This document shows, in pieces, positions 2,234-47,618 of a stretch of DNA of 60,000 bases (position 1 is the stretch's first letter; each line of letters begins with the position of its first letter). The notes under the pieces were generated by a model, which ran no database searches, was not told the DNA's origin, and saw only the letters and a list, made by a program, of their open reading frames with translations. Origin of the DNA: Bolinopsis microptera (lineage: Eukaryota > Ctenophora > Tentaculata > Lobata > Bolinopsidae); NCBI RefSeq assembly GCF_026151205.1, contig NC_087081.1, positions 8,925,246 to 8,985,245 of the forward strand, read 5' to 3'. A program made the translations under genes and the position numbers.

Positions 2234-3416
2234 ATGACATTTACAGACGAAATATTCGGGGCGATAGAAATCAGTTCCTGCCTTATAGGTGAGACCATTA
2301 TTTTACCCCAAGAAACATATTACAAATATGCAAATAAATTACTGGCAGTTGGTCAGCTAAAAATTATAAGTAATAAGTTGAAGTTTTTTGTTATGAGACA
2401 AAACATTAAATAAAGATTAGATTTGAAACAGATATTTTTCCAGGCCTGGCGCTGAATTCGTTGTGTCTCCCGTCATTCTACAGACGATCAGACAAAGCTA
2501 CGTTTCTCCTGTACCTGGTGGCAACAGTACCAGACATAATGACCTGCCTCTGCTGTCTCCCCTCTGCTATCAGCATGGTATACAGCAGGGACCCTGTCCT
2601 TCTCTCCAGCCCCCCGCTTTGTATCCTCACCGGATTTCTCTTCAATGTGTCCTCCAGAATGTCTGTGTTTGTGGTAGCCACACTAAGTGTGGTCAGATGG
2701 ATGACTATATGTGATATGGTACCTCGTCCCACGAACCGCAATATTCTTCTCTCCGCCTTCTTCTATCTCCTCTTCCAATTAGCCCAAGCAGCCCTCCCCC
2801 TCTTCTTCAGCACCAAGTCTCCCCCATCTACTTTGCTCCCCAGGTAGGGGCATGTTCCTGGGGCCTACCTGATCTTAACTTCCGGGATTACAACACAGCA
2901 GCATACAATGTAGTGTCCTACTCCCTGGTTATAATAACCTGGGTCCTACCTGCAGTCCCAGTCTTTATTTGCAGCGGATATATCCTGATGATCACCATCA
3001 AGCACCGGAGCCATCTTCAGCAGCTCTCTGCCTCTGTAAACCCAGGAAGCTGGACGGAGAGAGCTGCTGCTATCAGCAAGGCCTCCATAACCATCGTCCT
3101 CTACACAGTCACATACGCTGTCTTCAATGTCCCTATCTGGCTCTGCATTTTGGTGGTTCTCCTGAGCGTTGAGGATCACATAGCTTTCATTGGCAATGTG
3201 GTGTACGTCAACATATTCCTTTCTCGGCTTAGTGTCGTTATGAACGCTGCTGTGAATCCTGTCATCTACATTTTGAGACTTTCTGAAGTGAAGGAAGACT
3301 TAGCTGGGCTGGTTTCAATTGTCACCCAGCAAGATGAAGGACCCAAAAATGGGGATTCCAGAGACAAACCCTTCACCGATAAGAAAAGACCGAGGGCTAC
3401 GAGAACTAAATTGTAA
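2234..3416 (+). CDS. rhodopsin-family (class A) G-protein-coupled receptor, two exons, one-base frameshift
   Basis: Exon 1 is 2234-2288 (ATG start, donor G|GTGAGA). Exon 2 is 2444-3416 (acceptor TTTTTCCAG). They join in phase to give a TM1 with the motif GLALN. Exon 2 then encodes TM2, TM3 ending in VRW where DRY is usual, TM4, an extracellular loop with the expected cysteine (GACSWG), TM5, TM6 and TM7 ending in NPVIY. The frame breaks in the C5 run at 2821-2825: the upstream frame stops at 2845-2847, while the downstream frame runs on through loop 2 with no intron able to fix it. One more C would give an open frame of about 342 codons. It is therefore either a young pseudogene or a homopolymer error. 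The ligand is unknown. The N terminus before TM1 is very short, so a further upstream exon is possible. Confidence 0.8.
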
Positions 3417-3506
3417 TGAACAGCATTGGTAACGTCTTGAAATGAATCTGTGTTGTTAATTTATGTTTAACTTTAACTATGATACCAATTATTGTTATCA
3501 TTACAT

Positions 3507-3597
3507 TGTAGGTTTACAACCTACCAGGACGCGCGCCGAGTTGGACTCGTCGAATGTCCAATATATGGAACAGATATTTTACGAGTATCACCCGTTA
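3507..3597 (+). mobile_element. very short retroposon-like element, copy 1 (exact 10-bp TSD)
   Basis: A 91-bp insert starts TGTAGGTTTACAACC, contains ACGCGCGCCGAG and ends CACCCGTTA. It is flanked by direct repeats ATCATTACAT (3497-3506 and 3598-3607). The same sequence recurs at 46158-46240 and, diverged and inverted, at 45796-45881. There is no poly-A tail and no inverted repeat longer than a few bases. The GC-rich centre recalls a tRNA-like promoter, but no A or B box could be assigned with confidence. Confidence 0.75.
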
Positions 3598-3949
3598 ATC
3601 ATTACATTGTCATTGACATTAGACTTAGAGCATTATAGGCCTGATCAGAAATCATAGCTTTACTGTTTGTGCTTTAAAAATCTAACATTTAAGAATGGTT
3701 TTTTTTTCAAAAAAATACGTTGTTGTTTTGAATATTATTAGATCTGTATATTGGTTTGGAAAACATTGAAAGTTGAAGAGTTTTCGAGACTCAAAAAACT
3801 TACTGTTATTGATAGTGTGAAAAAAATTGTGAATTAAAACATCTACAAATTTCATTATCAATAATTATTTGTTGTTCAATGAATCACCGTTCTTGTAGTT
3901 GTTATACTTTTAACACAATAACAGTATAATGTTTGATTTTGGTATATTG

Positions 3950-4335
3950 CTCTGGCCAGCGCTGGCTGACGAGTAATATCGCAAACATTTTGCGCTGGCC
4001 ATCGCTAGTTGTCGCTATCCAGCGCTAGTTGTCGCTATCCAGCGCTAGTTGTCGCTATCCAGCGCTAGTTGTCGCTATCCAGCGGTAGTTATCTAACTGT
4101 TTTCTGCGATGGCCAGTTGCGCTGGCCATTGCAAACTGTCGGGTGCGACAATGTTGCATAGCCGGCGTTAACCAGCACTAGTTGTCGACAACTAGCGCTG
4201 GATTGCGACAACTAGCACTGGATTGCAACAATTATCGAACATTTATATTTTGCGCTAGATATAATATCTTTTACCAGCGCTGGATCGATAGCGTGCTAGT
4301 TGTCGCCATCCAGCGCTAGTTGTCGCGTTTACACT
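3950..4335. repeat. palindromic repeat cluster based on CCAGCGCTAG/TTGTCGC
   Basis: Direct copies of a 20-bp unit containing CCAGCGCTAGTTGTCGCTAT run through about 4008-4090. They are followed by inverted copies (GCGACAACTAGCGCTGG) at about 4165-4230 and again direct copies to 4325. The cluster can fold on itself at many positions. Related GCGCTAG/GTTAGCGC motifs occur near 50905-51030. Confidence 0.85.
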
Positions 4336-4763
4336 TAAATCGCAAAAGAACCCGATTTTTCACCTTCTTATTATATATTGTAGGAAGCTAATTTTTAATT
4401 TAGGCCCCAAAAATATTTGGCGGCCAAATTCTGAATTTTGCCGGGCAAATTTTGAAATTGGGCCGCCAAATTTTTTTGTAGGCCTAAAACAAAAATCGGC
4501 ATTCTACATTTACAATAAAGTGGAAATGCGATTTAGAGTCGATTCCGAAAATTTCATGCAAAAATTTTGAAAAATGATTTTGCGAATAAAATAGATAGAA
4601 TAAACGAAGATACGAGCAAATTTTGTTCATTTTTTGAGGTATTTTCGCCCTATAATCCACATTAAAACAGATATAAAGCTATAACTTACAAATTTGAGGC
4701 ATATTTTTGCTACTATTTAATAATCGCAACCTGTTGCTAGCGTACCAAATTACCGCTAGGAAT

Positions 4764-5298
4764 CAGTGATGCACGCCGCCGCCGGACGCCGCCGCGCCGG
4801 CACATTTTCACACGCCGCCACGCCGATACCTCTCAAGTCGGTGTGGCGTGAAAATTAAAAAAAAATTCAAAGCAAATTTTTTTGGACTTCTCCCAAGGAG
4901 AATCCTTCCCGACTCAAAAATCCTTCCACGCTCAAACAGAAGCTGGGCCTGGGGCCTAAGGAGAGACAATTTGAGGCCAAGCGACAGCAGATTGACCTCA
5001 TTAAACGATTTAGTATGCCTGCAGCAAGCAAAGACGCTAAGTCTAAGTTACAGGCTGAGGTCGCCACCTACGTACCAAAGTGAACACGTAGACCTGAATG
5101 ATATGGACAATGATCTCTTTTTATACTGGAAGAAAAGTGCGTCTAATTTTCCCATTCTTAGTAAGATTTTTTGTGGGCCTGGAAATTCAAACCTAAATTT
5201 TGACAAAATTATGTTCCACGCCGCCGAACGCCGCCACGCCGGGCCATTTTGGGCACGCCGCCGCCGGTTGGCGAAAAATGAACCGGCGTGCATCACTG
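4764..5298 (+). mobile_element. hAT-type DNA transposon, decayed and internally deleted
   Basis: Terminal inverted repeats CAGTGATGCACGCCG and CGGCGTGCATCACTG bound 535 bp, with an exact 8-bp target duplication CTAGGAAT at 4756-4763 and 5299-5306. The 8-bp duplication and CAGTGATG ends are typical of hAT elements. Inside, the + frame near 5100-5165 reads NDLFLYWKKSASNFPILSKI, which matches the start of the hAT C-terminal dimerisation domain. The rest of the transposase is missing or unreadable. The subterminal GCCGCC repeats are unusually GC-rich for this window. Confidence 0.88.
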
Positions 5299-5302
5299 CT
5301 AG

Positions 5303-7735
5303 GAATTGAGAGTCCCGCCCTACAAATCAGGAATTGAGAGTCTCGCCCTACAAATCAGGAATTGAGAGTCTCGCCCTACAGATCAGGAATTGAGAGTCTC
5401 GCCCTACAGATCAGGAATTGAGAGTCTCGCTCTACAGATCAGGTTAATTGAGAGTCTCGCCCTACAGATCAGGAATTGAGAGTTTCGTCTTACAAATCAG
5501 GAATTGAGAGTCTCACCCTACAGATCAGGAATTTAGAGTCTCGTCCTACAGATCAGGAATTGAGAGTTTCGCCCTACAGATCAGGAATTTAGAGTCTCGC
5601 CCTACAGATCAGGAATTGAGAGTTTCGCCCTACAGATCAGGAATTGAGAATCTCGTCTTACAAATCAGGAATTGAGAGTCTCGCCCTACAGATCAGGAAT
5701 TGAGAGTCTCGCCCTACAAATCAGGTTAATTGAGAGTCTCGCCCTACAAATCAGGAATTGAGAGTTTCGCCCTACAGATCAGGAATTTAGAGTCTCGCCC
5801 TACAGATCAGGAATTGAGAGTCTCGTCCTACAGATCAGGAATTGAGAATCTCGATCATCCTTCAGATCAGGAATTGAGAGTCTCGTTCTACAGATCAGGA
5901 ATTGAGAGTCTCGTTCTACAGATCAGGAATTGAGAGTCTCGTTCTACAGATCAGGAATTGAGAGTCTCGCTCTACAGATCAGGTTAATTGAGAGTCTCGC
6001 CCTACAGATCAGGAATTGAGAGTTTCGTCTTACAAATCAGGAATTGAGAGTCTCACCATACAGATCAGGAATTTAGAGTCTCGTCCTACAGATCAGGAAT
6101 TGAGAGTATCGTCCTACAGATCAGGAATTGAGAGTTTCGCCCTACAGATCAGGAATTTAGAGTCTCGCCCTACAGATCAGGAATTGAGAGTTTCGCCCTA
6201 CAGATCAGGAATTGAGAGTTTCGTCTTACAAATCAGGAATTGAGAGTCTCGCCCTACAGATCAGGAATTTAGAGTCTCGTCCTACAGATCAGGAATTGAG
6301 AGTATCGTCCTACAGATCAGGAATTGAGAGTTTCGCCCTACAGATCAGGAATTTAGAGTCTCGCCCTACAGATCAGGAATTGAGAGTTTCGCCCTACAGA
6401 TCAGGAATTGAGAGTCTCGTCCTACAGATCAGGAATTGAGAGTTTCGCCCTACAGATCAGGAATTGAGAGTCTCGTCCTACAGATCAGGAATTGAGAGTT
6501 TCGCCCTACAGATCAGGAATTTAGAGTCTCGCCCTACAGATCAGGAACTGAGAGTCTCGTCCTACAGATCAGGAATTGAGAATCTCGATCATCCTTCAGA
6601 TCAGGAATTGAGAGTCTCGTTCTACAGATCAGGAATTGAGAGTCTCGTTCTACAGATTAGGAATTGAGAGTCTCGTTCTACAGATCAGGAATTGAGAGTC
6701 TCGTCCTACAGATCAGGAATTGAGAGTTTCGCCCTACAGATCAGGAATTTAGAGTCTCGCCCTACAGATCAGGAACTGAGAGTCTCGTCCTACAGATCAG
6801 GAAAAGAGAATCTCGATCATCCTACAGATCAGGAATTGAGAGTCTCGTTCTACAGATCAGGAATTGAGAGTCTCGTCCTACAGATCAGGAATTGAGAGTT
6901 TCGCCCTACAGATCAGGAATTGAGAGTCTCGCCCTACAGATCAGGAATTGAGAGTCTCGTCCTACAGATCAGGAATTGAGAGTTTCGCCCTACAGATCAG
7001 GAATTTAGAGTCTCGCCCTACAGATCAGGAATTGAGAGTCTCGTCCTACAGATCAGGAATTGAGAATCTCGATCATCCTTCAGATCAGGAATTGAGAGTC
7101 TCGTTCTACAGATCAGGAATTGAGAGTCTCGTTCTACAGATTAGGAATTGAGAGTCTCGTTCTACAGATCAGGAATTGAGAGTCTCGCTCTACAGATCAG
7201 GTTAATTGAGAGTCTCGCCCTACAGATCAGGAAAAGAGAATCTCGATCATCCTACAGATCAGGAATTGAGAGTCTCGTCTTACAAATCAGGAATTGAGAG
7301 TCTCGCCCTACAGATCAGGAATTGAGAGTTTCGCCCTACAGATCAGGAATTGAGAGTCTCGCCCTACAGATCAGGAATTGAGAGTCTCGTCCTACAGATC
7401 AGGAATTGAGAATCTCGATCATCCTTCAGATCAGGAATTGAGAGTCTCGTTCTACAGATCAGGAATTGAGAGTCTCGTTCTACAGATTAGGAATTGAGAG
7501 TCTCGTTCTACAGATCAGGAATTGAGAGTCTCGTCCTACAGATCAGGAATTGAGAGTTTCGCCCTACAGATCAGGAATTTAGAGTCTCGCCCTACAGATC
7601 AGGAACTGAGAGTCTCGTCCTACAGATCAGGAAAAGAGAATCTCGATCATCCTACAGATCAGGAATTGAGAGTCTCGTCTTACAAATCAGGAATTGAGAG
7701 TCTCGCCCTCGGCCCTACAAATCAATCCAGTTATT
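5303..7735 (+). repeat. satellite array, 28-bp unit, about 85 copies
   Basis: The unit is AGGAATTGAGAGTCTCGCCC followed by TACAGATC (28 bp). Variants differ at a few sites (GTCC, GTTC, GTCT, TTTC, ACAAATC). Rarer forms recur at spaced intervals and imply higher-order units: ATCATCCTTCAGATC near 5850, 6580, 7068 and 7412; GGAAAAGAGAATC near 6799, 7229 and 7629; and a 2-bp longer GGTTAATTGAG form near 5443, 5723, 5982 and 7200. Because 28 is not a multiple of three, a frame repeats only every 84 bp, so the 67-100-codon open frames here are artefacts. Confidence 0.97.
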
Positions 7736-8404: not shown

Positions 8405-11400
8405 ATGTCTGAGATACGAACATGTTGTTTAGAGGGTGAGGATACATCGTTTATTACCGATCACGATAACAGTCTTAGCACTGGTGATATTGGAATACCA
8501 GTCTTCGGATTTGTGAGCAAGGTATTTTTCAACTTGTGATTTTCTTGGCTTTAGTTATTCTACTTAGTTATAAACTGTGAATCATGGTATCAATTGTAGA
8601 TGATTTGTTATATTAATAGCCACGGTCTTAGTCAGTGTAGATGCAATTGCTTATTTCTGTATAGTAAATTTTGCCTTCCAGTCGTAGCTACTAATTCCAC
8701 TAACTTAATGACACCACATAATAATGTATTCCTTATAAGTTTTACTTAATTTTTTACCCACAGATAAAACATCTGTGCTCTGGGCTTCTTAGGATACTCT
8801 TTCAGAACATATTCATTGTAGTGTACTGTAAACAAGGGCGGTCGAACTATTCGATGACCCTGTATAGGAATCTACGAACTTTACAAATCATACAAATTAT
8901 TACAGGTAAAACATCTGAAGTTCCGAAGCTCAAGGCTGATTCTACTGTTGCTGATAAACATGGTATTCGTCGGAGCTTCAAGTTTGGCTTTCATGCGGAT
9001 TGAGAACAAGTCACTGTGGGTTTATTATCAGTACGATATCTAAACATAAATACTGTATGGTGTTACCGCGCATTTATTAAGTTTATATTACCAGTAGGCA
9101 ATATTTGCACATATATGGCAACCTTATCTTTCAGTCCCGTGTGTCATGGAAGGTTTGTCAGTCTCATGGCGATTACAACTGACGTCAAAATTTATTAAGT
9201 TATAAATGATTGAAAATTTAATTCTTGGACATTTTGACGAGTCTCTGCTATCTTGCGATCGGGCATGATGATCAGATTAGCTAGCTGCTTATAATTACTA
9301 GTTTCTCGATTTTATTTCTGGGGACGGAAAGAAAGTCAAACTCGATTTTAAGTAACATACCGGTGACCATATACCAGATACTTATATAAGTACATGTTTC
9401 TTGGTAGATAATGGCTGTATTTTCAGACCAGTGCACCTAGAAACAAGAAAAGAAAGTCTTAGCTATCTTCTTGAAGGGATGCATAGTCAAAGATATCATC
9501 ACCGGCACAGAGGTAATATAGGCGCTAAATTTGTTCAATAACCAACATGCAGCCAACATTTTACCCATCATCATGCTGTGTGCTGCCAGTTTGATGATAT
9601 GGCATGGTTTATATTACAAGTTAACTCATGACAAATCACTTTAATTAAATTTACTAGCATGCTGTTTTAGTGGCATCATGCACAAAGCAAGAGAGGACAT
9701 TAATAGCGAAAAACAAGATTGTTACATTTTTGTTTCGCAAATGGCATAATAACATAAACCCGCCACGCAAAGGGTTTATATAACAGATCATCCCGCGCTA
9801 GCGGGATGATCTGATAAACACATACGAGTGCGCGCAGCGCACGAGTTTTGTGTTAATATGTAATCCCGAAGCGCCAGCTGAGGGATTACATTTATTTAGC
9901 CCTGAGCGTGAAGTGTTTATGGATTATAATTATCTCCGGCGATTTCGACAAGGGATTTATACTTTAGAAGAGAGTGATAAAATAGTTTTTACTGTACTGT
10001 CCGGAACACGATTGGAAAGCAGTTCATCAATCTGAATGTCAAACCGATCTGTCATAGTGGAGCAATAGCTTGAACGTTAGCAGGAACAAGAGCTGGAAGG
10101 AGAGCAAGCAAAACAATACTATTTTTAGGGCACGGACAAGGGTAGCTGGCTAGTCGCCAACTTCTCACGCCACGCGTTGGAGAAATTCCAAGAATTAGCT
10201 GCTTTGGCAACGTTCCCAGGAATTTGCGTGTAAAAGAAGTGGACGGTTACGATGTTTCATATCACGTGGTGCGCTTTCGTGTCACGTGGTATAGACTCGG
10301 CGTATGCTATTGGTGGCACGTGGTACGCACGTGACGCGCCCACGTGATCGCGCGTCTTACTGTTCTACTATTATCGAGTTCTAATCAGCAGTATCATTGA
10401 TTATTGTAAGTCGGAGAATTGAATGATAAACATCAGTTACGACTAAAAAGCGGGCCGGGTTTATACAAATTTCCGGGGCGGGATGATATCACCTTGAGAT
10501 GTTTATCTAACAGCGGGCCGGGCTGAGTGATAATATGATCCCGCGTCGAAATCCCGGAGATATTTATAATCATGGTAAAACTTTCTTTCAATATGCTTTT
10601 AGAGTTTTAGTGCACTATTATAGGACTGGTCGTTCATTTTTTACTGTCAAGTTTAAGTCACGAGTTGATGTTTTAACAAATGGTATTGGTAGTATGGACT
10701 ATGTGGATACCTTCGCGTCAGTTTACTAGATCCTTTAAGTTTAAGAACTATGATTTGTTTATCAACGTAACCTGCGAAAAGGTTGATTCCCTCCCTAAAT
10801 AGTCAAAGTAACGGTTCCCTCCTTAGCCTGTGAGTTTATATCTATTAACATTTACCTGGTAACCGAAACATGGCTTAAACTTTTAACTAAATATTATGAA
10901 CTGTAGTTGACTAAGATCATTTAATTTTTGTACGTACATTTTAAACAGAAGTAGCACTATGGTCGCGTTTGACATACGCACGACATACATACGCACGGCA
11001 TACATACGCACGGCATACATACGCACGGCATACATACGCACGGCATACTTACGCACGGCATACATACGCACGGCATACATACGCACGGCATACTTACGCA
11101 CGGCATACATACGCACGGCATACATACGCACGGCACACGTTCGCGTCTCAGACGTGATTCGTGGGCCCACTTATACTTTTATACGTGTGGGTAAGGATTA
11201 ATATTTTTGGACAACCAGCGCCGCTGTGAGGATTGGAACGGAACTAAACTGATTTGCATTCAACAGAGTCACAGAACCTGACTATTATTGCATCATCCCT
11301 TTTATCCCTTTAGCTTTGTAGCTCTATCACTGATATAGTCTATCAGGCATAAACTAAAGTTACTGGAGCGCTCTAGCGGACCCCCACAGACCAATATGCT

Positions 11401-14400
11401 ATATATTAAATTTTAGACATTGTTAATTGATGTCAGACCACTAACTTATATTACCATGTCTAGTCTAGAGCAACCTGCAAAAAATTCTTTAAATAAATAT
11501 CAACAACTACTTGCAAAAAGTTCATCAAACTATCAAATAAATGACAATAACTACCTGTAGCTACATTGAATCGAAGTTACGGTGCAGTAAACGAATGTCA
11601 GACGGCAGATAAGACCCTGAAATTTCATTAGGTAAATTAAAATGAGGGGTTGCGGATAAACTCAACAGTAGTAAATGTTTAATCTGTACTTTTGGTGCAG
11701 TCAGCATCACTGTATACTGTTTGGGGTGATTGGGGAATTTAGACCCTCTTAAGTTTAGTCCGGAAAACGTCTAAAATTTGTCCGAAATACGCGCGCAGAT
11801 CAAAATTTATTGTAAAAAATCGTTCTCACTCCACAGTGGAAATCGAAATATGCGAATTTTCGGCGACAAATACGTTTGCGTATGCATCAGCATACGTTTG
11901 CTTGAAACGCTACGTATTTAACAGCATTGATGTTGAGGAATCTGAACAATTTAATTTATTAAATTGAGTTCTGTGAGCATGAAGAGTGGAGGGACTTTAT
12001 CGCATCGTTATATTATATTAAGTGGCAGTAAACTAGTGGGTTGTGATGAATGGGATTTGACACTGGACAGTGGACACCTCATGGCAACATTGAAATATTT
12101 TATCGACTCTATTTCATCGCTTCTTTATAACCGTTTATGAATGTTGAGGAACCTGCACAATTTCATTTATTAATTTGAGTTTAGAATCAACATTATCCGG
12201 CTTGTTGAAACATTATCGCGCGATTGTAAATACTAACAGTATAACTCATAGTTATTATATGGGTCACGAAATCCTCTCCGAACCTCCACGTGGTGTGGCC
12301 TGGTTGGCACTAACGGGTGGTGTGCTCTCTTGTTGAGTACAAAGGTTGGGCCTTGCCAACTCAAAGTTCCCATAGGAACCAGGAAGTCAACACTAACAGC
12401 TACCAAGCACCAGGAAATTTCTCTTTCAGATATCAGGTTACAAGATAGTACACACACAAATGACGATACATTAGACACAGATACCTAGCTCTAAGAGCTA
12501 CTAAATCACCAGGAAATTCTCTTTCAGCTTTCAGGTCCCATCGAAGTCACCCACCACAGAGCTAGGGATTCCAATTCGCTCATCCTGACTACAAGGACAC
12601 ACTGATAATGAGTAGTCCTGGCACTTCTCCCTCCAGTAACCACTTTTCAGGTCTTTTCAGTTAAGACAGCTAATGCGTAAGGGCTGACACACGCTAGACA
12701 CAGGCTCGTGATAAGACAGAATTAGGGATTTAAACTCTGAATACGAGGACACACTGATAGCGAGAATTCCTGGCACTTCTTCCTCCAGTAACCACTTTTC
12801 AGGGGACCGGGTTAGCTTTGCCACACTCTTCATTGAAGTGTGACTGGACGCTCTACAATCATCTAGTAGCAGCAGAGTTTGACTGACACCCTTACTGGTT
12901 CTATTCAGTTTCTACAGCGGAAGATCTCAACACTCGAAAACAGTTCATCTCGGACATCCTGCAGAGCTGCTTTTTCACAGCCTGCCCCATTACACGGGGA
13001 ACCCTTAGATCTACAGTACCCTGGTGGCGAGCATAGCTCACTAAAGCAAAGTGGACCTCTTTAGTTCTGAGACGCAAAGCTAACCGGATCAGGAATAAAC
13101 GTCAATGCAATGCTTAGGGGATGCAAATAGAACATACAATGTTTATCGAATGCATTACTCAATCTTTTGATTCATTTTTTTAGCTCGACGTTACATGGTA
13201 ACATTTCAGGACTGACATTCCTCCTTCAGGTTAATTGAGGAAATCATACCCGCTATTTGCGTTATACATGGCAAGTATCTGGACTTATGATAACTTAGGA
13301 TCTCCATCAATCATAAATTCCTCTCAGATTCCCAGGCTGCATTTAAAGCGCTTAACAGCACCAGTTTTAACTCCAGGTTCGTTCTGAACATCTCAGACCA
13401 ACTCACTAGGTATTCACATCGAGTAGGACTTCGTTCCAGGACATTAAGGAGTATACGGTAAAGAACTAGCGGAAGAATTCGCAAGGGACGATCAATCCAA
13501 CAACATCCCCATAGGACCAGAACCCTTCCTCCCAAATAGGCCACACTCAGTGACAAAGGAACATTCCACTTGTGATGTTCCTCCACAAATTAAATACAGG
13601 AACTTTTATTTTTCTGGAACTCACATCAGATTGCTAACATGGTCGCTTTCAGAATAGGTCACAGCCCACTAGTTTATTTTCAGAACGTGGCAAACAACGT
13701 CAACTTCAAGACGCAAGATTGCGAACACTTTTCAGGAGAAGCAGCAACATCCCAGCACTTCCTCTACAAGTGCATCCAGATCATGACGTTCAGAATGAGG
13801 ATAATTGGTAAACTCTACCTTAACAACAGTAAACTACATCATATCTTCACATTTGTGGAACAGTCGACAAGAATGGATAGGGAAAACCCTTTTGGGTAAC
13901 CTCCTTGGATTCTTCACCAGGAACTTTCGCTAAATCCCATACTAGGAACTCAACCTAGGCCCATCTCCGCATAGAGACAATATATCTCCCAGGCTTTGAC
14001 CTTGCTCGGAAGTCCCTTGTCTACCCGCAGAAGTACTACAACGGAAGTGGGTTTGCTCTGAGACAGGTAGTGACAGCTTCAAGACTCCAGGGGTCTGTTG
14101 CATTGATATTTATTATTTTATGATTTCGTATATACTTTGGGAGTCCTGGCGTGCAGCTAGCAGGAGTTGCATTCTGTGGGCACGGTGAGAAGGCCTCCAT
14201 CTTAACGTAAGAGGCCAGAAACCGTTGACCAGAACAGAGAGAGAGAGAGAACTCATAGTTATACACCTATACTGTTTATATTTCATCGAGCGATTGAAGA
14301 TGATAAGGGGTTGTGAATATCCACTAAATTGAAGTTATGGGTTTATTTTGTTGAACAACCAACTTCTCTGTTAGGATTGGTGCAATTTGATCGCATATTT

Positions 14401-17400
14401 AAATACAAACAATATTACTGGTACAACACAGATAACTACATGTATGAGTTGGTTTTAGTTGTACGCTTAAGCAGTTTGTAAATATGGGAAATGAATTTAC
14501 GTAAAAGATAACCGGAACTAACACTTTATTTAACCGATCAAAAGGTTTAATCTTGAACTATCAGAATCGCTATGGAGAGTGAAAGAATATTTATACCAAC
14601 ATATTTCAAAGTTATGCACTAAGACAATTTATGAAATTGGTTTCTAACATTTTTATATAGCTTGATCATATAGTGAGAACTACATATACTGTATATAAAA
14701 GGTAAACGAAATCAATGCTGTATAAAGTCCTAGGAAATAGTGCAGGAAATATTTAAGAATTCGTTTAAAAACGTTTGAAACCCACTGAGCAATTGACAGT
14801 CATTAAAGTGGCTCTGTATTATTCCCTCTGTCCCTCTATCAGGTATAAACGAAAGTTACTGGAGAGCTTTAGCGGACCTCCACAGACCGAGATGCTATCA
14901 GATCAACAACCGGCATACTGAGAACAACTTGTGGAATTTCTGGTCGTCCCTTGACTTTTGTGCCACCCTACTAACCACTATTGGTATGTGCCACCCTACT
15001 AACCACTATTGGTATGTGCCACCCTACTAACCACTATTGGTATGTGCCACCCTACTAACCACTATTGGTATGTGCCACCCTACTAACCACTATTGGTATG
15101 TGGCACCCTACTAACCACTATTGGTATGTGGCACCCTACTAACCACTATTGGTATGTGGCACCCTACTAACCACTATTGGTATGTGGCACCCTACTAACC
15201 ACTATTGGTATGTGCCACCCTACTAACCACTATTGGTATGTGCCACCCTACTAACCACTATTGGTATGTGGCACTCTACTTTCTACCGAATGTATTGAGG
15301 TTTTCATGTTTTTCGGACTTTCGTAACGTTTCTTTAAAGTTCTAAACCCATGGTGCTACCAGTACCAACCATTAAGTTATTCTCCACTGCAACCTCCCTG
15401 ATAATGGATATTACCTATTTTGTTAATTCCTCCCAGGCGGAACTAGTTTGCTGAATAACGAATGCTGCTGTATTGTGTCACTAATGGCCGTAATGCATGA
15501 TATTGATTGTACATGATTTCTGTTGGCATCACGAACCATACAATTTTGAAAAATTTAGAAATGCTTGGAATCTAATTTTCCAGGGTATGGAAACATGTCG
15601 CCAAGAACCAGTGCCGGGAGACTCTTTACTGTGGTGTACTCCTCTGTTGGAATACCTCTTATGGCAATGTACCTAGCACTTTTCAGTAAAGGTTTGGTAT
15701 TTTAATAAAACATTTATAATTGTTAGTCTTAACATTTTTTACCCAGGTCCAAATGAATTGAAAATGACGGCGAGGTGTACATATTTCAGGTATATAATCT
15801 TGATATTTTTGCAGGAATCTACCGCCTGTCAAGAGTGTTTATTCGATACTGTGTCAACTGTCTTAAGAGAATACAGGTAGGTCCTTATGAGTAACATGAA
15901 TGTTGTAGCTTTTCAAGGTCGAAGAATATAATAATTATACTAATACGGACAGTGGGCATATTCAATTGATTCCGCTACGCTGTTTATGACATGTGCTAAA
16001 TTTAGAGAGAAAAGACAGTTTCTTTCAGGATTCATGCCCAAAGAAATTTGGCGACATGGATGTCTGTTACTTTAACGATTTATGCCCAAAGCTGTTCACT
16101 ATTTTAACGAAATAAGACTTGGCACCGCATGAAAATATTTATCAAGTTGAATTTAGAGTGATAAGTAGTACTTAGAAGTAAGTATATATCTATCATTTTG
16201 GAACAATCAACATTACTCCATGGGTTGGAACATTATTGCGTCGGTAAATACTAACAATATAACTCATAGTTATACATCTATGTCCTATACTGTTTATATT
16301 TCATCAAGCAAATGAAAATGATCATAAGGTTCTACGATTTTCCAATAAACTGAAGTTATAAGGATATATATATTCGGAGTTAATATTTCCGAACAGCCAG
16401 CTTCGCTGTGAGGAATGATTGCATATTTAAATACTGAACTACAAGCAGTATAAGTATAACTGGTAGAAAACAGTAAATATAACACACATAACCCCGGCAT
16501 GCGCAGGGATTATATTTCAATTTTTCCCGCGACGCGCGGGAAAAATTTATAATGATTTCGAGTGCGAAGCACGAGGGATTATTATGAAAATAACCCCGAC
16601 GTGCTTTAGCACGAGGGGTTATTTTAATATAACTTAAGCGTGCCGGTGTTATGTGTTATAAACCCCTCCGGGTTAGTGCTAGGACCAACAAATTTGACAT
16701 TTTACTCTTAATTCTAGCTATATGAGATCATTATGGAAAATATGAAATGGAATTGGGGACTTCCAAATAAATACAACTAAGGTACTATGACTTTTGAAAT
16801 TGGCGTTATATCTAAACATTATTCCTCAGTCAGAACGTTGAATGAATATGAATATCGATAAGGGGCGTCGAGTTAAGCCTGGCAAGCGATAAAAGCTAAT
16901 AATGATATCGTGTCATGAAGTTCATCAAAGTAGGACGACTATAATACATGGCTTATATCAAACTCGACAAAATTAAGCGAACCGGACAAAATCAAATGTA
17001 ACCGTCGAGACAAGTTTTGGAACTGGTCCAATTAATGTAAGAGTTTAAGTAATGTAGTGTGCTGGAGTTTTGCCAGCGCCTGCAATTAGACCGATACGTA
17101 GATCGAGTGTATTTATAGTTCTTACGTTAAGCCATAGGTCACGTGACATTTTTTACCAATGCGCGTCGTAGTAGTTAGTCACGTGATACACGTCATCAAA
17201 ACACGTGACAGTACGCGGTTGAAATTCTCATGGAATATCAAAACAAAACAAATCTTGTTGAGCCAAATTAGCGGGGCGGGATTATAAAAGCTGTGCCGGG
17301 GTTATTTATTCAGCGGGAAAAAACTAACAGCGGGAGCCGGGATTATCAGAATCTATTTAGCGGGAGCCGGGATTATCAGAATCTTATTCTATCCCGGAGG

Positions 17401-20400
17401 GGTTTATAAACTAGTAAACTCAAGTTAGGGGTTGATACTTTTGAACAACCAGTGTCACTGAGAGGATTGGAGGAATATTATCGCATATTTAAATACAAAC
17501 AGTATAACTAGTATCTTAGTATACTATCCGGATAGGAACATTTTTCATGATTCGCATCGTTGTGATGCTTCTGATGGAAATTTCTGATGATTCCGTGTAT
17601 TGCGGCAAAGTTAAAATTCTCTTGTTTTTAGGCGAACGAAATTGGTCGACATTGCAATTTTTTTTTTTTATTTTTTTTAGAGAGGCTGGGCCTGGTTGGC
17701 CCACGAGAGGATAGCATATGAATGCTTTGCCTACCTCTGGGGTATGGCAGTCCTGTGGGAGGATGCCAGTGGAATCAAGATGTGTAATCAAGGATGATGG
17801 TAAGTGTTGTGGGGTGTGTCATGGATAAACGCTTAAGTGGTGGTTGAGTGTGGAAGAGAGAGGCGAAATAAGACGGCGTTAAAATAGTCGCTATGTTACA
17901 CCTGTCTGGTCCAACTCCTCTGGCACCACTAAGCGTTTAGTGTGGTTTGTAAAGTTGACAATGGTGGAGATGTGTTGGTTGTCGAATATGTCATTGACAG
18001 AGAGGTAGTAGTCCCGGAAATATTGACCTCTTATTTGGGCAATAGCCGGGCACTGTCCGAGAAAGTGTGAGACAGTCTCCTCTTCGTCGCCGCATTTAGG
18101 ACAAGCACTTGTGTCTGATTTGCGAATGGTGTGTAGGTGTTTGTTGAGGCCACAATGTCCCGTGATGAGGTGCACTCCAGTACTATAATTTTGTCTGTTG
18201 TTACTGAGTGTAGTGTTGAGATTTTTGATGATGTTGATGTTTTTATGTCCAAGTGTCAGTTTAGTGTGTCTGGGACCATCAGTAATCCATGATTCTTGAT
18301 TAAGTTTTGTGACTTTGTCGTTGATCAGGCGTTTGATGTAAGATTGTGGAATTGGGCAATTCAAAGTGGATTCACTGGTTGTACCATTTTTGGCCAGCTC
18401 GTCTGCTTTTTCATTACCCCACAATCCAATGTGTGCAGCTATCCATCTGATCTCTAAGGTGTTAGTGGATCCGAGTGTATTGAGGGTGTCGTAACAGTCT
18501 CTAGTAGTCCTACTCCTCGTTGAAGGTGAGGATATGGCTTGAATAGAAGAGAGACTGTCTGACCATATGATGATATGTGTGTTTGTGTAAGTTGATAGAT
18601 ATTTACAAGCTTCGATGATGGCAGTGAGTTCTGTTTGATATACGGTGCAATAATCGGGAAGCTTGAATGATCTTTCATCTAGTGTAGTGTTGTTGTTGTC
18701 TGTGGTGATAATATAACCAGCCCCGCTACCTGAGTCTGTGCGTGACCCGTCTGTGTAGCAGGTGATGGTTTCACTGGGGATGTTGTCGATGGTGTTTTGG
18801 AGTGAGCCTCTATATCCAATGTTGTCAGCTCCAGGAGTGGTGACCGTGAAGCGTCGTTCAAGCATCATGGTTGGTATAGATAGGTCTCTCTCTGCTTTGA
18901 GTGGTATGTTGAGATCTACCATGAATTGTTTGTTGATAGTGGTGTGAGTTGTGATGGTACCTTTTCTGGGGGCGATAGTTTCATGAATAATAAGAATATA
19001 ATGTCGTGACATTGCAATGTCACGACATTATATTCTTATTATTCTCCAATTATTTGTTATATAGTAGTGCTGAAAGTATCAAACAAATTTAATACTTTCG
19101 GCAACCACACAGTCAATCAACAATACAGTTTATCATTCAAACAGTCTATCTAACACTCTAACAGCAAGGAGAACCTCACTTAAAACTCTTTACTACAGCT
19201 GGAGGTAGCGTCTACTACGATCAGTATTTTATCCCTCCTTGTGTTAACCCTGCTGCTCGGGACTTACATAGGAGTTCTTAGCTACGTGGGTTTAACTTCT
19301 ACTTTTACTAATTTTACATTTTCTGTTGATCATTTATTTGCTTCAATTCATTTTAGTTATATATTTCACTGGTTCGCCTGCTTCTATGTAAAGATATAAA
19401 TTTAGCTGATGTTTTCTTTCAGCCATAATGTTTAATCTAGAAACATCCTGAATTTGTATTTGGCAACATATACCTATAATGCATTATAAATTTTCAAATT
19501 TTGCGCCACTTCCACATTTTGAGTATCTTAGCGTACTTTTAGGCATTTTAAAAGCGTACAAAAACATCATTTGTGATTTTTCAGATCATGACAGAAACCG
19601 ACTCAACGGACAGCTTGGTCCAATGTTTTTACTTCTACACAATAACATTGAGCACAGTCGGGCTGGGGGACATGGCCATGACTGAGGCGCTTCCCTACGT
19701 CCTCATAAGAATATTACTCGTCTTCTGTGTGGGTAAGTTATTAGGTAATTGGATAATTGGATAATTAGTGGCTTATTATGTATCATGCTGACTGTGGTTT
19801 TGTCACAGCTGCTGCAGTATGAGTAAGTTTGTCACAAACTGGTAAGTTTACACTTTACATAATTTATATCAAATAATGATGTTTTGTCGTAATAATTCAT
19901 CAATATTAATGCGCTGATAACAGATAATGCCTAATAATATAAATATCGAGGCTTGTGAAATCGCATAAATTGAGCTTGGTCATGTCTTCGGGATTGATGA
20001 AATTAAAAGGCCTCGTTAAAAGGTTTACTGGTATAACTATAAAGTTGCATTTATTGATACAGCAACAATAAACATCCCTATCCTTATATTATATCCACCA
20101 GCGTGCGCTTTTTCGCATAGCGGGCTCTCACCAGCTTATATTATAACCATGTCTTTAAAATATTCATTACAAAAACGTGTCTTTCAGACAGCTCGCTCTT
20201 GGCGCATTAAATGAAATAACAAATTTGACTAGATGTGATGATTGATTTTATGAGGTAAGGTATCAAATGAACATAGGTTATAACTACCTATAATCGTATA
20301 ACCAGCTCCAAAATAAGAGATAGTACTTATTCCACAGGGCTAACGTTAGTAACTGCCGTCTTTAACGCTCTGAGACACTTGATAGCTTCCAAAAAACGGT

Positions 20401-23400
20401 AAGATTATTGACTATTTTATGTTTGATAACTTAGCTTCCTACTTAGTGAATAACTTAGTCAAATTATTAATTTGTTGACGCATGACACTGATTTAATGCT
20501 TAGTGAGCGCCCATTCTTTATGTTTTCGAACTGTCTTTTCAATAATAATATAATAATCAAAGAAACTATAACAATTTGACACCGAAAGAAACTATATACG
20601 AAAGAGTCATTCTCTGTTCTTAAACCTTAACCATGTCTAGCTCACAAAATAATTTAGTACCGGTTCATGTGAGGTATGTAAGGTATGTAGTTAGGTATGT
20701 AAGGTATGTAGTTAGGTATGTAGTTAGGTATGTAAGGTATGTAGTTAGGTATGTAAGGTATGTAGTTAGGTATGTCTAATTATAGTTGATTTTTTAACTC
20801 TACTCCACACAACATTTAAGTGAAACTGGCACTCCTTTTCTATCAAAACAATATTTGGAGGCTAAATTCTGACGTCTCTTCCTGGAACTATATCATTATT
20901 ATGGTAGAGACTAGAGGCGGAAAAGTGAACCGTCAACCTTGCGTACGTGACACTCTCTTCTAATGTTACATGGGAGTGCCACGTTTCGCGCAGTGTTCAT
21001 GTAATTTATATTGACACTGCAGAATCAAATCGTGAATAGAATTTGAATCGTGAAATAAAGTGAAGGTGGGAAACACTACCTGCCAATCCGTGACCCGGCG
21101 CCAACATTTTGTCATTTGACCGTCCAATCTGTCAGTGTTTTAATATCCCTGCATGTTCATGGCATGTGCATGGCAAGGGATAGAAAGTTAAGTCTTGAAA
21201 TTAGAGTTCAGACCAGACTTTTGATCATGCATCAACTGTCATTTCACCTTCCGACAAACCATCGCTCAAATTAGATTACGCAAGGTTTTTGACTATACTC
21301 GTCAGCAGACAGCAGTTCTATAATAAGTTCTGATAATGTGCTTTGGTACTGCACAAGACAACGGTCTTGGGATAATTTTCCGACCAAAATTTGGATACTT
21401 GCTACATTTTAACCATGTAGGTTTGAAAAAAACCGTAACAACTTCCGATACATCAAAAATTGACTGAGTTATGAACTATGATTAAAAACGGTGCGACCAA
21501 ATTTTGATAGATTACAGTCCATAAATTGGTAAAATACCAATATTTAAAATACCAAATTGATAAAATACCAATAATTAAATAAAAATCTACATATTCTCTG
21601 TGATTAACAGCTCAGATTTTTAAAGTGTTCAGGAGACTAGTTCAATTCCTTCTGGTAGCATCTTGAATGGATATTTACAGGCCTGCAACACCTAACACCT
21701 AACACCTAGCAACACCTAGCAACACCTAGTAGCAACACCTAACAACACCTAGTAGCAAAATACTAATCGTATTTCTCAGGGTGGTGAATAGGTCGAGGGT
21801 GAAAATGCAAGCAGCCTCATACTTCATCACCAAAGCAAATGCGAATAGAGTGAGACGAGCTAGCATGAGGTAATATGATTTTTTATTTACAAAATAGAAT
21901 CCTATAAAGCTATAAGATAGATATAATTATCAAAAAGATATCTTTAATAATAATGAAAAGTCTGTCTGTTTGTTGTTCATTCGTTCGTTTGTTATTTCCA
22001 AACCACTTAATGAAGAAAACTCAAGTGTGAGTAGTCTCATAACTTTATAAATACTAGCAGGAACCCGTATAATATAACTCTAAACGGTTTCAAGACTCAA
22101 CAGACCAAAATAATTATTACCTATTTAATTCGCGTTTTTGACACCACTTGGGGGTCCAAATTTTGGGCTCTAAAATCACTAATTCTTGGCCAATTTTTAT
22201 TTTTTCATGCTGAATTGGAGGTTATTAAAGCATTTGACCCAGTCAAAAAAGTTTCAGTTGTATATCTTTTACGGTTTTTGCGGAAATTCGCTTTAAAGTT
22301 GATGCCGTGGTGTCAGTAAAATGGCACGGATAAATATATATATATCGTCTCGCTTTATATATAGTAAGATAAAGTGAAAGTAGAAAGTAGAAGTAGCGAA
22401 ATTAAAATAGCTTTAAAATATTGGTATTCGTACAATCCGCACAGATTATGCTTTATACTTCATGTTTTGTTTATATGCATTACATTTTGATTAATGGCAC
22501 CACCACTGTCCACTACCACATTATTTACCAAATATTATTAAGCTTAACCAATTCGGACACATAAAAGTGAAAAACACTCATTATAGTTTAAGGATACGTT
22601 CATTGAAGTTTGAGGATATTGGTAAACAAACAAAGATAGTGTTTTCAACGATAGTGGCCTAATTTTAGCATCTATTAATCTAGCATGTTCAGACGCTAAA
22701 CGTTTTGACCAGCACTTATATTATTTCCCAGGTGGCTGAGAAGGGTATCAGAAAAAAGATCAGTCAGGGAGACAACAAAGGATCTTAAAAAGAGTTCAGA
22801 TCCGAGAGAAATTAACGATAAAACGATTAGGGATGAACTTGGCACTGTTTTTCAAGAAGAACCTGATCCCGAAAACAGCCGTGAGTCACTTTTAACCTTA
22901 TCTTTACTTATCAAGATAACACAAGGAAATTTTCCTCTTGGTTGGTAATATACTCAATGATGGAAGTGTAGTGTATTGGCTATGCCCCGCTTACTAGTTT
23001 AGCTCTTTCTAGTCCCCTGCTACACGGCATGTAAACAGGGATTGGCTAGTTAGAGGCGGTCCGTGTAGGCCTTACACTGTGCTTTCAGCAATACTCATAA
23101 GAGACAGTTTACATATATTTATAGCGTATGCCAGATTTTGATCCTTTGATAATGTGACATGTGTCCAGTGTCTATATGTGAAATATGGTACCGCGACAAT
23201 TGACCCCCTATGTAATTACACTGGGGTCAATTGTCGCGAAATCTAGGGTTTAGTACGACAATTGACCCCCATGTAATTACACTGGGGTCAATTGATCGGG
23301 TTAAGGTCAGGGTCCTGGGTCCTGGGTCCTGGGTCCTGGGTCCTGGGTCCTGGGTCCTGGGTCCTGGGTCCTGGGTCCTGGGTCCTGGGTCCTGGGTCCT

Positions 23401-47295: not shown

Positions 47296-47618
<323 letters not shown>

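Follow-up and report, generated by a model that had tools for sequence, protein, structure and literature searches.

What is the origin of an island in a ctenophore genome in which a row of GC-rich hairpins with unrelated stems is followed by a cluster of CACGTG palindromes and then by single hairpin arms in the same left-to-right order? The island lies in the window analysed here, that is, the whole stretch of 60,000 nucleotides of Bolinopsis microptera DNA (contig NC_087081.1, positions 8,925,246 to 8,985,245 of the forward strand). The hairpin island is an internally deleted non-autonomous copy of a Crypton, belonging to the family designated F1; it occupies window positions 9744-10569, and its gene direction is minus. 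The minus strand corresponds to the gene direction of the full-length relative, with the 3' end of the island at 9744, the 5' end at 10569 and the first element-derived base at 9748. The boundaries proposed in the sequence-only reading, 9754..10575, enclosed a real island but missed the true limits of the element, which spans about 9744-10569.

The four stem-loops seen on the left by that reading, the five CACGTG palindromes in the middle and the uninverted order of the single arms on the right were all found again (Table 1). The fold of window positions 9744-9932 reaches -51.2 kcal/mol, compared with a shuffle mean of -20.1 (z -11.1; none of the 200 shuffles was as good); the right block by itself folds weakly (z -1.9; matched by 7 of 200 shuffles). 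The whole window contains 25 CACGTG motifs versus 7.4 expected, a number not reached in 100 shuffles. When the right block was aligned with the left block in the same order, the score was 72.2 and the maximum of 500 shuffles was 61.4, so that no shuffle attained it; the inverted comparison scored 55.2, which was reached by 13 of 500 shuffles. The same-order single arms are therefore part of the layout as described, but next to them, within the 3' block, lies an inverted counterpart of the joined ends that had been overlooked. A 35-nt inverted match in the island, between 9922-9956 and 10538-10571, had escaped notice and turned out to be the key feature. The window also contains tandem arrays (GGGTCA/GGGTCCT, a 28-mer in about 85 copies and a (TG)n run) at 23308-25340, 5301-7709 and 47297-47616.

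Table 1. Features of the two islands, in window coordinates; an empty strand cell means that no strand is assigned.
Feature	Position	Strand	Basis
Non-autonomous Crypton F1	9744..10569	-	95-100% identical dispersed copies; full-length relative L059:3132-5691
3' junction core	9744..9749	-	TTATGC in gene direction versus element core TTATAA; table of 57 distinct 3' junctions
3' block, predicted cloverleaf of outer stem and three arms	9744..9932		Fold z -11.1; same shape in L059, L084, L093
Terminal palindrome ATAAACCC..GGGTTTAT	9754..9779		Part of the predicted cloverleaf outer stem
Arm III, perfect 13-bp stem	9784..9813		Outer pairs, F1 versus F2
Arm II, C-GA-stem-loop-stem-GA-G, loop GCA	9818..9853		Motif on window + strand
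Arm I, C-GA-stem-loop-stem-GA-G	9858..9891		Motif on window + strand; outer pairs, F1 versus F2
Internal inverted copy of the circle junction (3' arm, TTATAA, 5' arm)	9907..9956		Scored on the full-length relative
Recombinase gene-start remnant (MTDRFDIQIDELLSNRVPDSTV..), first codons	9984..10055	-	Match row G000:C10:8935229-8935300 of the F1-exon search
Five-CACGTG cluster, upstream of the recombinase gene	10263..10346		Motif count
5' terminal block, single half-site-like motifs in the order of the hairpin arms, ending in the 5' core	10446..10569	-	Half-sites by eye
5' junction core TTATAA	10564..10569	-	Junction table
Second island, non-autonomous Crypton F2, same layout	16478..17409	-	Similarity to F2 element and fold

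Many further copies exist in the same genome (265 Mb). Scoring of 40 of the 195 candidate places gave at least 64 match rows, 95-100% identical to the window copy. In the copies taken with their flanks, unrelated flanking sequences begin at the same points, and an internal deletion is the main difference among most of them. One copy richer in internal sequence (L046) pointed to two further places: L059, where positions 3132-5691 represent the full-length F1 element of 2,560 nt, and L060, which matches only the first 1,385 nt of it. By eye, the full-length copy has no second long open reading frame. Strongly reduced F1 copies are possibly under-sampled, since copies were retrieved by their resemblance to the gene and, with 40 of 195 candidates scored, to that of the window. 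At one place (L024, G000:C10:14750000-14752400) two F1 copies with the same internal deletion lie inverted about 116 bp apart with different flanks, and more inverted neighbours occur among the rows of the F1-exon search (C4:4295489/4295821, C7:18178815/18179657). Local hopping or inverted intermediates could be the cause of such neighbours.

The F1 gene lies opposite to the + strand of the window and, by eye, looks split by introns. Its first exon matches Pfam DUF3504 (PF12012) with E 2.8e-11 and 44.2 bits, above the cut-off of 29.7. A search of the genome with this exon, in which all 129 candidates were scored, produced 100 match rows and led to related elements. Recombinase identity to F1 is 46% for F2 (L084; L082/L083 form an inverted pair), 34-41% over pieces for F3 (L093, L094, L095) and 30% for F4 (L091), and the F2 and F4 tyrosine recombinases (YRs) are 27% identical to each other. 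DUF3504 was likewise detected above the cut-off in F2 (E 7.4e-16) and F4 (E 1.1e-12), and F3 was assigned via similarity to the F1 exon only. The F2 protein matches Phage_integrase with E 3.5e-4, under the cut-off of that family, and its sole PDB sequence match up to E 1 is QRICH1 (E 6e-4), which is among the genes derived from Cryptons in the account of Kojima and Jurka (PMC3212892). In the F2 open reading frame, putative catalytic R, R, H and Y residues can be recognised by eye in LRGGDE, RSIR, TGHSS and NQYTR; the AlphaFold model of this protein is too poor for use (mean pLDDT 41.5). Hairpins also occur at a more deeply diverged YR locus (L092), whose identity to F1 is 27%.

Judged by its recombinase sequence, the parent of family F1 is a Crypton. 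It encodes a DUF3504-type tyrosine recombinase and carries a TTATAA-like core on each side, corresponding to the short direct repeat of 4-6 bp at both Crypton ends, and the F2 motifs supply the probable catalytic R, R, H and Y. Long terminal or subterminal repeats, reported absent from animal Cryptons although their absence is not a defining requirement, do exist here, in the form of an internal inverted junction copy and a predicted cloverleaf. The supposition of a new mobile class holds as regards mobility and an unusual layout, but the full-length relative encodes a DUF3504 tyrosine recombinase and is a Crypton; a class unrelated to known transposons is ruled out by the DUF3504 matches in F1, F2 and F4. 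The full-length elements have 5 (F1), 4 (F2), 3 (F3) and 1 (F4) CACGTG motifs upstream of the gene. The second island of the window is 97% identical to F2 over element positions 2169-2406, 93% over 1-152 and 80% over 246-345, and consists of a half-site block, three CACGTG motifs and a cloverleaf block. The F2 3' block has 230 candidate places in the genome, 40 of which were scored.

The insertion points were compared using 61 junction sequences (one repeats another locus), which give 56 distinct 5' and 57 distinct 3' junctions. In the gene direction, position 1 of the 5' core is T in 33, A in 18, C in 3 and G in 2 cases, and positions 2-6 read TATAA in 55-56 of the 56. In the 3' core, T occupies positions 1 and 2 in 56 and 57 of the 57 junctions, respectively; positions 3-6 are variable, ATAA being the commonest tetramer. 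We read this pattern as an element that probably gives TATAA at one side and TT at the other, the target giving the rest. Insertions into tandem arrays (L021, L040), which serve as built-in empty sites, are by eye consistent with it, and an F2 copy nested in another F2 (L082) shows TTATAA at both ends, also by eye; one locus (L045) deviates from the core pattern on the 5' side. No clear fixed-length target duplication was seen by eye in the F1 copies. A DDE transposon or MITE with terminal inverted repeats is excluded by this and by the ends, TATAAATATC and GTTATT.

Several unusual junctions can also be noted. At two places that are near-identical to each other (L109, G000:C3:20199226-20199669, and L110, G000:C4:9140037-9140482), 3' blocks of the subfamilies F3a and F3b stand tail to tail with a shared core. 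At a third (L094, G000:C11:19842300-19845200), an F3 3' end is by eye directly followed by a sequence like the F3 5' end, as in a head-to-tail arrangement. Similar head-to-tail-like junctions occur in F4 (L091) around 877 and 3750 in gene orientation.

Natural internal deletions indicate which parts of the element are retained. Sixty F1 loci comprise one full-length copy (L059), 53 deleted copies with both ends and six that, by the criteria used, are without an end (L034, L060, L067, L071, L072, L073). The 53 loci have 43 distinct breakpoint pairs and are not all independent insertions: L024 holds two copies, and L038 and L039 have identical flanks. The 3' block aligns across its whole length in 52 of the 53, the remaining locus (L030) having lost part of arm III; among the 52, two (L026, L062) have an insertion within the block, and in five (L015, L045, L063, L078, L099) the alignment of the 3' part contains 3-19 gap letters. 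In 37 of the 53 loci the breakpoint falls at 2300-2346, just before the start of the internal copy (about 2349 in the same coordinates). On the 5' side, the deleted copies retain at least about 560 nt, with the exception of an internal gap in L064, and this part includes the CACGTG cluster and the first codons. By eye, some deletion junctions (for example in L037, L039 and L022) seem to contain a short filler that was copied from other parts of the element, which points to template switching or to a repair process that was interrupted.

The overlooked component of the layout was examined using a model of the circle junction, composed of the last 36 nt of an element and the 30 nt after its 5' core, with which the rest of each element was searched. 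An inverted copy of this junction is present in all four families, with scores of 55 (F1), 50 (F2), 39 (F3) and 38 (F4) against shuffle maxima of 28, 28, 34 and 30 (0 of 500 in each case); scores in direct orientation are 17-24. The internal copy tracks the ends of its own family, since the junctions score merely 16-25, the background level, against elements of the other families. It ends about 76-161 nt from the 3' end, and hairpins fill the stretch between. When the joined ends are folded with the 3' block, 6, 6, 5 and 6 of the 6 core letters (F1-F4) are paired with the internal copy on the gene strand. The corresponding numbers for the other strand are 6, 3, 6 and 6; in the F2 copy that was folded, one core letter derives from the target. 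The z values of the other strand are -12.0, -16.8, -10.8 and -6.7 for F1-F4 (60 shuffles each).

In the gene direction, the 3' block consists of the internal site, three arms and the 3' core. The predicted folds of F1, F2 and F3 follow one plan, in which an outer stem formed by the internal site and the 3' terminus encloses the three arms (z -9.7, -11.3 and -8.0, respectively; 0 of 200 shuffles each); the F4 version has a single arm. The F1 element has no DNA similarity to the F2 loci by blastn; given this and the background-level junction scores between families, the cloverleaf plan is shared more than the sequence. When arms I and III of F1 and F2 were compared in a register set by hand, 7 of the 15 counted outer pairs were changed on both sides and none on one side (4 of 8 in arm III and 3 of 7 in arm I).

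The expectation that the stems stay paired while their sequences change was borne out by covariation in the related family F3 of the same genome. For F3, 40 of 231 candidates were scored; 20 stretches with 22 blocks were taken and L093 was added, resulting in an alignment of 23 blocks, 22 of them distinct, that are 83-100% identical to L093. In this alignment 98.3% of cells are paired, compared with 30.7-58.3% when the partners are slid, and 7 of the 69 consensus pairs are altered on both sides in at least one sequence. The number of double-change cells is 34 against a shuffle mean of 11.6, and the covariation score is 0.085 against 0.040 (0 of 500 shuffles for both). Counts of pairs with a double change (7 versus 5.6) and of further pair types (17 versus 15.6) were each reached by 25 of 500 shuffles. 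The covarying changes lie mostly on one subfamily split, F3a/F3b.

The arms also have a recurrent interruption. In six arms, two in F1 and one each in F2, F3a, F3b and F4, the strand opposite the gene carries the pattern C-GA-stem-loop-stem-GA-G, which was found nowhere on the gene strand of these blocks. Elsewhere in the window, with the two Cryptons excluded, there are five instances of a looser GA pattern closed by other letters and a single one (59510, minus) closed by C..G. In single-stranded DNA, tandem GA pairs and GNA loops are known to be stable. The computed fold energies of the opposite and gene strands are -52.2/-52.0 for F1, -55.6/-56.9 for F2, -60.9/-55.2 for F3a, -60.8/-61.8 for F3b and -27.4/-24.7 for F4, and those of the two window copies are -51.2/-51.2 and -51.2/-51.6. 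There is no consistent strand preference in these energies, which counts against a strand-specific folding model.

The best reading of the 3' block, which we hold tentatively, is that it is a recombination platform in which a folded single strand may rebuild the double-stranded recombination core, as in integron attC sites. With slightly less assurance, the whole element may be regarded as a eukaryotic tyrosine-recombinase transposon that moves via a folded single DNA strand and has a splint built in, namely the inverted copy of its joined ends. The element would become single-stranded as an excised circle or as a strand exposed in replication. The joined ends would then pair with the internal inverted copy on one strand, so that both arms and a full double-stranded core are restored at the base of the cloverleaf. 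The folded strand recognised by the YR would probably be the non-gene strand, whose arms bear the GA/GA mismatches. Like an integron integrase acting on attC, the enzyme would carry out an exchange between this strand and a double-stranded target resembling TTATAA. The half-sites that occur singly on the 5' side may be binding sites of the YR, and the CACGTG cluster may be a promoter driven by a host factor. Several observations stand against this model. F4 is one-armed, and in L092 the layout of cloverleaf and internal copy was not seen on a quick look at the hairpin list and the self-comparison. Arm III is partly lost in L030, and L026 and L062 have insertions in the block. The kept 5' part of about 560 nt is left unexplained by the folded-strand model and counts against it.

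Inverted double-stranded DNA sites would leave the same sequence signature as the folded strand. The internal copy may be an ordinary double-stranded att site. YR recombination between the junction and this copy in the excised circle could invert the intervening segment, turn theta replication into a double rolling circle and so amplify the element, an alternative that we consider rather unlikely, although it is the closest rival. In the yeast 2-micron plasmid, Flp acting on inverted FRT sites causes just such an inversion, followed by double rolling circle amplification, and the elements described here resemble this plasmid in having inverted copies of a YR site in one circle. The core and both arms are inverted in four families, the palindromic TTATAA core would make orientation irrelevant, F3 3' blocks stand tail to tail with a common core in L109 and L110, and candidate places are numerous although the enzyme is of the cut-and-paste type; all this agrees with a double-stranded site. 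However, frequent inversion predicts a mixture of orientations, whereas all 53 F1 loci have their 3' block in one and the same orientation to the 5' part (the orientation was counted in F1 alone), so that a frequent inversion switch is rejected. Permuted or tandem F1 copies were not seen either: a pattern search for the intact F1 junction returned a single match, with 2 mismatches, beside the 3' end of the L067 copy. The single orientation and the lack of a permuted F1 copy speak against frequent flipping and not against rare flipping. Unlike in the 2-micron plasmid, the internal copy lies close to the 3' end with hairpins between, and the three arms and the GA/GA mismatches are not explained by a double-stranded att site.

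The paired arms can also be explained without folding, if they are inverted half-sites for YR dimers or another double-strand binder, accompanied by accessory arm sites on the 5' side, with pairing as a by-product of the dyads. By eye, many arms, and the 5' block too, show a half-site-like motif of CCC/GGG beside sequence of the TTAT type, and the order is identical in both blocks, which favours this explanation. Nevertheless, the arms within one element differ in sequence while each pairs with itself, and in arms from four families GA/GA, with identical letters on one strand, interrupts the dyad at one and the same point, which makes this explanation improbable. A lower probability still is assigned to palindromes made and perfected by template switching in replication or by hairpin repair and themselves functionless. 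The correction of quasi-palindromes can look like covariation, and inverted pairs and nested copies do exist. This process, however, does not account for the recurrence of arm number and order in three families despite the missing blastn similarity of F1 and F2, for the retention of the block in nearly all deletion derivatives or for the GA/GA mismatches that persist uncorrected. Finally, it is very improbable that the block acts as RNA, for instance within the 3' part of the YR transcript, where it might govern processing or stability, or as an antisense RNA: folding and covariation cannot tell RNA from DNA, but gene-less copies retain the block plus the terminal core, the outer stem includes the very end of the element, and a known RNA family or tRNA is excluded by the lack of any Rfam family at gathering score in window positions 9600-17600 and of any ARAGORN match in the whole window.

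The reading of the 3' block as a folded recombination platform can be compared with known systems. In integron attC sites, structure and strand-marking extra-helical bases stand in for sequence (PMC2727003). Both systems have a tyrosine recombinase, folded imperfect palindromes with conserved structure, and asymmetric interruptions that mark the strand (PMC2727003), and by analogy the 3' blocks appear to be attC-type palindromes with variable sequence, conserved structure and strand-asymmetric interruptions. Unlike in integrons, the parent YR is of the DUF3504 type and no cassette was seen, the predicted structure is a multi-arm cloverleaf, and the core would be completed by a separate inverted copy; the interruptions of attC are single extra-helical bases, in contrast to the GA/GA mismatches here, and single-strand use is here a prediction. 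Integron membership, which implies IntI and attI, does not apply to a parent with a DUF3504 YR, and we infer that the F1-F4 elements may work like attC without being integron members. Helitrons, Helentrons and foldback elements have terminal or subterminal hairpins and non-autonomous copies. They differ from the present elements, in which the parent has a YR gene and the core is TTATAA; the open reading frames of the full-length copy are also too short for the Rep/helicase of Helitrons.

Animal Cryptons (CryptonA/CryptonI; PMC3212892) are described as having a DUF3504-similar YR, short core repeats at the ends and non-autonomous derivatives keeping both ends, all of which are found here. Terminal repeats are reported absent from them by Kojima and Jurka in 2011 (PMC3212892), and a 2022 guide gives short direct repeats as the only distinguishing feature of Cryptons and describes them as usually present in few copies (PMC8969392). 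In a survey that covered nematodes and outgroups, one Crypton was identified, in Nematostella, plus a match judged to be contamination (PMC4157794). The elements described here differ from the published animal Cryptons in their predicted cloverleaf, in the inverted junction copy inside the element and in their number, with 195-231 candidate places for each family, 40 of which were scored in each of the searches. No description of this terminal architecture of a Crypton was found among the titles and abstract openings listed for the open-licence literature.

The predicted cloverleaf and the internal inverted junction copy are a possible clue to how Cryptons move. With about 200 candidate places per family, near-identical copies and a clear retention pattern, the question of how Cryptons recognise their ends and multiply becomes directly testable in this ctenophore. 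If the reading is true, an attC-like mode of transposition would exist outside bacteria. Should the folded strand prove to be the substrate, YR recombination directed by structure would no longer be confined to bacterial integrons but would include a eukaryotic transposon.
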